Shown: in pieces, positions 2,369 through 4,246 of the stretch
How positions within the stretch are numbered: the stretch's first letter is position 1
Layout of the letters: the number at the start of each line of letters is the position of its first letter
Assembly: GCA_009869945.1 (NCBI GenBank)
Contig: WIXG01000581.1
Span: 1-36,599 of the forward strand
Direction of reading: 5' to 3'
Length of the DNA: 36,599 bases
From: Mesaphorura yosii
Lineage: Eukaryota; Arthropoda; Collembola; Poduromorpha; Tullbergiidae
The notes under the pieces: generated by a model
Database searches by the model: none
What the model was told of the DNA's origin: nothing
What the model saw: only the letters and a program-made list of their open reading frames with translations
Position numbers and translations under genes: made by a program

Positions 2369-4246
2369 ATGTCGCCGCAATTACAAATGCAAGAAAAATC
2401 GCGCCCCGGGCGCAGTTTTGGTTCACAGCTTCTCGGACAAATTTCTATCGACGATCGATCTTGCCAGCTGCAGAAGCGACAAATTCAAGCTACCGTCGAC
2501 GGATTTGGAGACGCTTTAGAGTCGCTGAATCGCTCTTTCAGAAACGCTCAGCCAAGCGCCGACCCGAATGAAATCGCGGCCGCTGCCTGTCACGTGCAAT
2601 GGCAAACTCACACGGCGGCGAAACACCTTTTCGCAGCGCCGACACAAACAAGCGCAACGTCAACGCCAATGCCAACGTCAACACCGATAGGCTACAAACA
2701 TTTCCAGCTGCAAAATGAAGCCTGCCTCAAAACTCTGCACGCATTCTTTCTGGACAGGCGGTCGACCGACTTCCGAGAGGGCGCGCGAAATATGAATTCT
2801 TACCTGCAAGTTTGCTACCCCGTCGCGGCGCAGGTTTTCCATGCAACTGGCAAGCTTGCAAAGTCCACAAATTTACTGGACAACCCTCTCCTTCTTCAGG
2901 TAGGCCGCCTGCTGCAGGCGGAGCTCGATTTTACGGCGACGGTCGCGAATTCAGGCTCCGTTGTCTCGCACGCGTACGCACAGGCGTGGAACGCGATGGA
3001 CGACATTCTCGCTGAAATTTGCGGCGCGAGGTACAAAATGCCTAAAACGGTCCGGGAAAAGTGGGCACTTTGCAGGACGCACGACGTTTTCGACGTGCAC
3101 GTGCGAAAACGCGAGTCGCAGCTGGTGCTCCTGAAGCAGCAGATCGCTGGGATGAAAAGTGGCGTCAACGGCAAGAACGGCACGCCTTTCATTGTCGAAA
3201 CGCTGGAATTCTTTGTCCACTTCCTTCAAGCGTGCAAACACGAAAGCCTCACATGCCGTTTCTTCGCGTACGACGAAGTTCTTCACTGCCACAAGGACAG
3301 GGAGCTCATGATCAAGATCGTAGCCGACTGGACGCGGGAGACATTTGACGCCGACACACAGTCGTACTTCCTGGGCGATGAGCTGCTGTACGACTGCGTG
3401 AATTACATTTACTCGTTCGTCGACGACGTGCAGATACTTGCAGAGATTGGAAAATGCGTCCTACTCGGTCTTTATATGGACGGAGTCGCGGAGCACAACC
3501 TGGCATTTGTGGGGACGCTCGCAGAGACGTTTGCGTACGCGCAAAAGACAGAGGAGGACGCCCCCGTCGGCGATTTCACATGCGGCGGCGGGAAATGGCC
3601 GCAGAAGTACGTCACCGTGTCGAAGGCGTATATAACCTACTGCAGGGGCATCAAGCGACTCCTGAACGTCGACGTTGCGGGGTACTGGCTTCGATGGGCA
3701 CCGTCGATACGGCAGACTCACGAGAAAGCGTACACGTGCATCGACGACTACCTCGAGGATCGAATGGTCGATATTGCGATGGACTGCTACAATGCCGTGG
3801 CGGCCGCGTACGCCGGCGTGACGCTTCCGGACGAACTGCCACTCTCAATCCGCCGCCCGATGATGTGGTTTTACGTGCTCGAGAACGATTTCTTCTCATA
3901 CGGGAAGGAACTCGTCGAGGAAGGCTACGACCACAGCAAAGTCCTCAATGCCATCGAAATCTACAAACACCTGCATCCGGAGCTGTCCTACCAGGAAGTC
4001 ATGTATGACCTGGAAGAGATGCGGGACGACCTGTTTAATCAGATCATAAGGAAGTGGAGGGGCACTGAAAACCACATTTGGTACCACATTTGCCTCGGCC
4101 TCACTCACGTCACTCTGAATGCCAAACGCTACGCCTACAGGACAATCCTGTCCAAAAATTCCCTGCTCATCATGATGGGGAAGGGCGTCGAGCGGGCGGA
4201 TATTTGTTTCTTGAATCCTCTGAAGGAAGCAAACAACAATACTTAA
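2369..4246 (+). CDS. Class I terpene synthase-like protein, intronless
   Basis: A 625-residue protein with the spaced motif set of microbial-type class I terpene synthases, which ionise prenyl diphosphates and cyclise them with Mg2+. Seen: Asp-rich region FVDDVQILAE with D352-D353; candidate pyrophosphate-sensor R465 in DDYLEDR; a full NSE triad N506-D-x-x-S510-x-x-x-E514; and the C-terminal R587-Y588 pair. The gaps (about 113, 41 and 81 residues) match the family, so the catalytic domain is about residues 270-610. The first 270 residues are an extra region: low complexity at about 80-115 (Thr/Pro/Ser), then unrecognised helical-looking sequence. The start is the first ATG of the open frame. 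There is no intron, although most neighbours have them. GC-rich codon use resembles EXOC2, so the gene is not compositionally foreign. Product and substrate are unknown. Odd point: the Asp-rich motif lacks the acidic residue at +4 (E359 lies at +7). Confidence 0.75.
   Translation: MSPQLQMQEKSRPGRSFGSQLLGQISIDDRSCQLQKRQIQATVDGFGDALESLNRSFRNAQPSADPNEIAAAACHVQWQTHTAAKHLFAAPTQTSATSTPMPTSTPIGYKHFQLQNEACLKTLHAFFLDRRSTDFREGARNMNSYLQVCYPVAAQVFHATGKLAKSTNLLDNPLLLQVGRLLQAELDFTATVANSGSVVSHAYAQAWNAMDDILAEICGARYKMPKTVREKWALCRTHDVFDVHVRKRESQLVLLKQQIAGMKSGVNGKNGTPFIVETLEFFVHFLQACKHESLTCRFFAYDEVLHCHKDRELMIKIVADWTRETFDADTQSYFLGDELLYDCVNYIYSFVDDVQILAEIGKCVLLGLYMDGVAEHNLAFVGTLAETFAYAQKTEEDAPVGDFTCGGGKWPQKYVTVSKAYITYCRGIKRLLNVDVAGYWLRWAPSIRQTHEKAYTCIDDYLEDRMVDIAMDCYNAVAAAYAGVTLPDELPLSIRRPMMWFYVLENDFFSYGKELVEEGYDHSKVLNAIEIYKHLHPELSYQEVMYDLEEMRDDLFNQIIRKWRGTENHIWYHICLGLTHVTLNAKRYAYRTILSKNSLLIMMGKGVERADICFLNPLKEANNNT

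Follow-up and report, generated by a model that had tools for sequence, protein, structure and literature searches.

The open reading frame (ORF) at positions 2369..4246 of the forward strand of contig WIXG01000581.1 from the springtail Mesaphorura yosii raises the question of what kind of terpene-related protein is encoded by an animal gene of this form. The sequence-only reading of the window (the whole 36,599-nucleotide stretch of DNA analysed) had proposed a microbial-type class I terpene synthase (TPS). A TPS domain is retained in residues 271-625, but the 625-residue protein as a whole is a fusion in which an isoprenyl diphosphate synthase (IDS)-like half precedes the TPS half, and paralogs have the same layout: six single-frame genes of this IDS-like/TPS order lie on six contigs (C581, which is the window, C1022, C241, C277, C841 and C862). 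The preferred reading, to which we assign a probability of roughly 70%, is that a decayed and likely non-catalytic IDS half is joined to a class I TPS half that would form a terpene from a prenyl diphosphate. Read from the sequences, the two halves, their common order in six genes, the motif losses and the linkage to host genes are established.

The terpene synthase half

The C-terminal half (residues 271-625; 3179..4243, on the forward strand, as are all parts of the protein given below) is assigned as a class I TPS domain from PF19086 and from Foldseek and VIA-align comparisons of the predicted model. The PF19086 profile (Terpene_syn_C_2), which had been named in advance as a check on the TPS assignment, matches residues 447-555 with an E value of 5.8e-7 and a score of 29.9 bits, above the cut-off of 23.7. 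The structural comparison points the same way: the predicted model matches class I terpene synthases in both Foldseek and VIA, all 50 of the 50 VIA matches listed are terpene synthases, and residues 271-625 are predicted to adopt the alpha-helical class I fold. NCBIfam returns no match for the window protein, and the C1022 protein finds none among PDB sequences at E 0.1.

The catalytic motifs proposed earlier survive in part. R465 (3761..3763), which we take to be the sensor Arg, is conserved in all six chimeras and aligns with an Arg of FgGS, and the NSE triad N506-D-F-F-S510-Y-G-K-E514 (3884..3910) and the R587-Y588 (RY) pair (4127..4132) are likewise placed by alignment. The pair D352-D353 (3422..3427), the sole DD within residues 270-400, is rejected as the metal motif because it aligns with “EDF” or “EDI” in the paralogs and not with their DDxxD/E motifs. 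The actual Asp-rich site is the degenerate D371-G-V-A-E375 (3479..3493), which aligns with DDAMD of C1022, DDLME of C277 and DDVME of C841; the first Asp and the final Glu are kept, and the second Asp is replaced by Gly.

Class I enzymes, IDSs and TPSs alike, share the alpha fold, and both halves of the protein would have it if the C-terminal half were a second, duplicated IDS instead of a TPS. This explanation is barely credible and is rejected because the C-terminal halves of the chimeras match the IDS-like halves with an E value of 0.14, compared with 9.7e-4 for the separate TPSs of the same genome (at an hhalign probability of only 21.9%); the NSE triad, the PF19086 match and the structural matches to terpene synthases also argue against it. 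In a tree of the TPS halves, in which one row is partial, one is joined and a doubtful match on C964 is left out, the six chimeras stand apart from seven separate TPSs with a support of 100/100, and the window copy pairs with C1022 at 98/97.

The isoprenyl diphosphate synthase-like half and its gene family

The N-terminal half (residues 1-270; 2369..3178) is identified as a decayed IDS domain by alignment with the paralogs. Residues 1-105 give no confident alignment, and profile-supported homology to the IDS-like halves of the paralogs, obtained with hhalign, covers residues 106-257 (2684..3139). The combined N-terminal half of the window copy and C1022 matches those of C241, C277, C841 and C862 with a probability of 98.9 and an E value of 3e-17, compared with 0.03 for the best of 60 column-shuffled controls and 0.78 for the reversed control. 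This result bears on the alternative that the protein is simply a TPS of the microbial type that carries an unrelated extension at its N-terminus. Residues 1-446 have no Pfam match and residues 1-105 of the model have a predicted local distance difference test (pLDDT) value below 50, as would suit an extension of this kind; however, the profile match far exceeds its shuffled controls, and the first half of the C241 paralog belongs to PF00348 (E 1.3e-22) with an intact first Asp motif, DDICD. The alternative is therefore rejected as highly improbable.

Among the other chimeras, the first half of C277 reaches PF00348 at E 1.3e-4, below the cut-off, and C1022, C841 and C862 give no match to this profile. 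The four clearer N-terminal halves (C241, C277, C841 and C862) match two host IDSs, an FPPS-type piece on C144 (E 4.4e-5) and a GGPPS-like protein on C154 (E 8e-5). In BLASTP, C241 matches the GGPPS-like protein at 2e-7 and the FPPS piece at 9e-4, the latter without the first motif, and the first half reaches a PDSS-like piece on C853 at E 0.067. FPPS as a firm source of the first half is rejected, because the GGPPS-like protein matches about equally.

Compared with the host IDSs, the chimeras have largely lost the Asp motifs: all six lack an intact second motif, and C241 alone keeps the first. In the window protein, residues 1-270 contain no DDxxD, and the site of the second motif, placed by alignments and by the alignment of the paralogs to host FPPS, reads A184-E-L-D-F188 (2918..2932) and is not intact. 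The structure search for an IDS fold in this half lists human FPPS at rank 49 (E 3.8e-3) with no aligned range; the VIA rows are filled by the TPS half, so structure neither supports nor excludes an IDS fold here.

The family was delimited by searches of the 93.0-Mb genome. The window protein finds six further places, and queries with the paralogs bring in C862, with both a complete copy and a fragment, and an additional C7 gene. Three genes (two on C7 and one on C446) carry the IDS-like half only, with a frame that stops after it; a TPS half beside them was not found with the C241 and C277 proteins, although an exon may have been missed. One of the C7 genes keeps the first IDS motif. In a tree of the IDS halves (19 rows, several of which were assembled from exons by script), the six chimeras and these three genes form one group with a support of 100/100, and the IDS-only genes either predate the fusion or have lost their TPS half.

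Several observations weigh against a decayed IDS half joined to an active TPS half. PF00348 gives no match on the window protein itself, and the combined N-terminal half of the window copy and C1022 reaches a host FPPS piece directly at only E 0.23, so the IDS identity of this half is placed via the paralogs; the half is called an IDS only, because the FPPS and GGPPS-like matches are not separable. The chimeras alone are supported at 57/25 in the IDS-half tree, which makes a single origin weak. On the TPS side, in addition to the low hhalign probability given above, the confidence of the model is low (pLDDT 58.7 overall), and the Asp-rich motif of the window copy reads DGxxE. Two of the six chimeras (C241 and C862) have lost all or most of their TPS motifs, and PF19086 matches only three of the six at any E value up to 10; the family may thus include proteins that are not cyclases. 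Additionally, protein database searches, both capped and hence no proof of absence, return 0 matches among 7999 scored candidates each, for the window protein (E<=10) and for the family alignment (E<=1).

The same losses would suit a TPS-fold pseudo-enzyme, in which the window copy has lost its catalytic role and instead serves in binding or transport, or pairs with another chimera: DGxxE replaces DDxxD/E in this copy, most TPS motifs are gone in C862 and C241, and the second IDS motif is intact nowhere in the family. However, the window copy keeps the first Asp, the Glu, the Arg, the full NSE triad and the RY pair within 625 codons that contain no stop, and its sister C1022 has an intact DDAMD and NDLHSFGKE. 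We consider a pseudo-enzyme rather unlikely.

The surroundings of the other chimeras provide some additional observations. The C862 fragment (local 1372-1911, +), which resembles the first half of a chimera (E 1.1e-8), lies near a helicase-like ORF of PIF1/Helitron type by eye, and mobile elements may have helped to spread the family. On C841 (8942-18940), the chimera adjoins a 1410-residue ORF with acyltransferase, dehydratase and carrier-protein domains of the fatty acid synthase/polyketide synthase type. A receptor-like ORF near the C1022 chimera (local 9642-9989) is 31% identical over 115 residues to one at 5666-6376 of the window; no Pfam family matches the receptor-like ORFs at either place, and a neighbourhood shared by the two chimeras is possible.

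Proposed mechanism and comparison with known systems

Under the reading of a decayed IDS half joined to a class I TPS half, the chimeras would go back to the joining of an IDS gene to a TPS gene, perhaps in a single event, and the N-terminal half would now serve as a non-catalytic scaffold, as a fold partner or a dimer interface. The C-terminal half, for which terpene-forming activity is predicted from its sequence, would ionise a prenyl diphosphate with the help of Mg2+. Ligands for this metal in the window copy may be D371 and E375 together with N506, S510 and E514, and R465 would sense the diphosphate. The host IDS genes would provide farnesyl or geranylgeranyl diphosphate (FPP or GGPP), and the terpene formed may belong to the cuticle or act in defence or signalling.

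Acquisition of the TPS half by horizontal transfer is plausible. Used as queries in a protein search, five separate TPS genes of the genome give two matches, one of which is a bacterial terpene cyclase (E 2.6e-7). The other is an ENA protein from a 4506-base contig that is 94% identical to a separate TPS on C1048, which indicates that a close relative has been sequenced elsewhere. A scan of bacterial genomes with the TPS half of the window copy and C1022 gives 334 pattern matches, none of which was confirmed.

The window protein shares the predicted fold, the NSE triad, the sensor-type Arg and the RY pair with microbial-type class I TPSs (PF19086; FgGS and LrdC), and differs from the FgGS/LrdC type in its IDS-like half and its DGxxE motif. 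In the IDS-derived TPSs of insects, the IDS-like domain is itself the TPS and has no NSE triad. Both systems tie arthropod terpene formation to IDS-like sequence; however, the springtail TPS half is of the PF19086 type with an NSE triad, and the C-terminal halves of the chimeras do not match their IDS-like halves. The insect enzymes (flea beetle type) are mentioned in the available part of PMC6275457, which reports families of microbe-like TPS genes in the nuclear genome of trombidid mites; a fusion to an IDS is not described in that part, the mite enzymes being compared here by description and not by sequence.

According to the portion of PMC8307374 consulted, the chimeric prenyltransferase-terpene synthases (PTTS) of fungi also carry both an IDS domain and a class I TPS domain on a single polypeptide, an arrangement called unique to fungi in 2021. 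Their TPS domain is N-terminal and their prenyltransferase domain C-terminal, whereas the springtail order is reversed, with the IDS-like half first and its motifs lost. If true, a family of six animal genes that share the opposite domain order would represent a fusion independent of the fungal one. Among the papers listed by the literature searches (titles and abstract openings), no report of an arthropod IDS/TPS fusion was found; a 2024 PNAS study of canonical TPSs in arthropods lies outside this scope and may mention such fusions. The main text of a 2026 survey of fusions from horizontal gene transfer in 319 arthropod genomes, as far as it was available, does not contain “prenyl”, “isopren” or “farnesyl”.

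A single genome thus holds chimeras at different stages of motif loss in either half, which would offer a way to test how a catalytic domain becomes a scaffold. To our knowledge, no gene has been assigned to the higher terpenes of the springtail cuticle. In the accessible text of PMC11321324, higher terpenes are recorded on the cuticle of 16 of the 23 springtail species examined, with the ubiquinone pathway proposed as their source, and nitidane is described as an irregular prenylated diterpene in that of PMC11129290. The occurrence of unusual terpenes on the cuticle makes the chimera family a testable candidate for making them, and together with the FPPS and TPS neighbours described below it would form a short gene list for these compounds. 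The irregular prenylated compounds made by springtails, nitidane and viaticene among them (PMC11321324 and PMC11129290, in the parts available), could also suggest a prenyl-joining enzyme, in which two alpha folds couple isoprenoid chains and no single substrate is cyclised; the first IDS motif kept in C241 and in the IDS-only relative on C7 would agree with this. However, no copy among the six has an intact second IDS motif, the ubiquinone pathway has been put forward as the source, and we regard such an enzyme as improbable. A broader proposal, which is possible but doubtful, is that one animal lineage, probably springtails, made chimeric TPSs of its own from a native IDS and a horizontally acquired TPS in the reverse of the fungal order, and that the family expanded, with either half since retired in some members, to give the unusual higher terpenes of the cuticle.

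Host setting and other isoprenoid genes

The ORF runs from an ATG at 2369 to a TAA ending at 4246 (625 codons, no internal stop), and the stop-free frame around it spans 671 codons; the longest such frame across 60 copies of the window generated with a second-order Markov model reaches 292. The earlier description of an intronless gene among host genes, with host-like GC content, is borne out: its GC content at third codon positions is 0.680, and four ORFs nearby have values of 0.684, 0.687, 0.655 and 0.612. Its neighbours include a 7tm_7 chemosensory receptor (8033..9343, -; Pfam E 3.2e-13), a WD40/DUF3337 protein assigned by Pfam (10034..11488, +), which is presumably WDR48-like, and further animal-type genes, Sec5 and an MGA-domain protein. 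The expected promoter and poly(A) candidates are also present, namely a TATA-like box (TATAAA at 2267; 2267..2273, +) that is a consensus match only, a possible initiator, TCAGTT (2287, +), also matched by consensus, and a candidate AATAAA signal (4290..4295, +) 44 bases past the stop, matched by sequence.

Approximately 1.7 kb upstream of the gene, positions 223-690 (-) hold an ORF that looks transposase-like (zinc ribbon and helix-turn-helix), with weak Pfam matches only. Across the genome, there are 61 matches to 7tm_7 receptors, 26 Hemocyanin_M match pieces and 12 DIOX_N matches; a search for odorant receptors, run without a positive control, gives 0 matches. The 7tm_7 and Hemocyanin_M counts suit a pancrustacean, probably a springtail, better than an acariform mite, a group not known to have hemocyanins or phenoloxidases.

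PF19086 has nine matches in the genome: the window, C1022, six separate TPS loci and the doubtful one on C964. PF00348 has 22 match pieces, including eight genes that, by their motifs, are read as FPPS-type. These eight genes are read in at least two separate frames each, whereas the fused genes are single frames, so spread of the chimeras by retroposition or segmental duplication is possible.

FPPS-type and TPS genes are adjacent at two loci. On C242 (56000-65900), one TPS (local 4156-5430, +) is flanked by three FPPS-type genes that lie on the opposite strand, and this animal genome may thus contain a cluster of terpene genes. On C116 (64500-74400), a TPS (local 2527-4099, +) is followed by an FPPS-type gene (7270-8256, +) and, by eye, by the start of a second TPS (local 9480-9899, +). 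On C556 (around 3444-4040), tandem TPSs at local 3-605 (cut by the locus) and 1141-2271 are followed at local 2938-3435 by an ORF that by eye resembles a cis-prenyltransferase.
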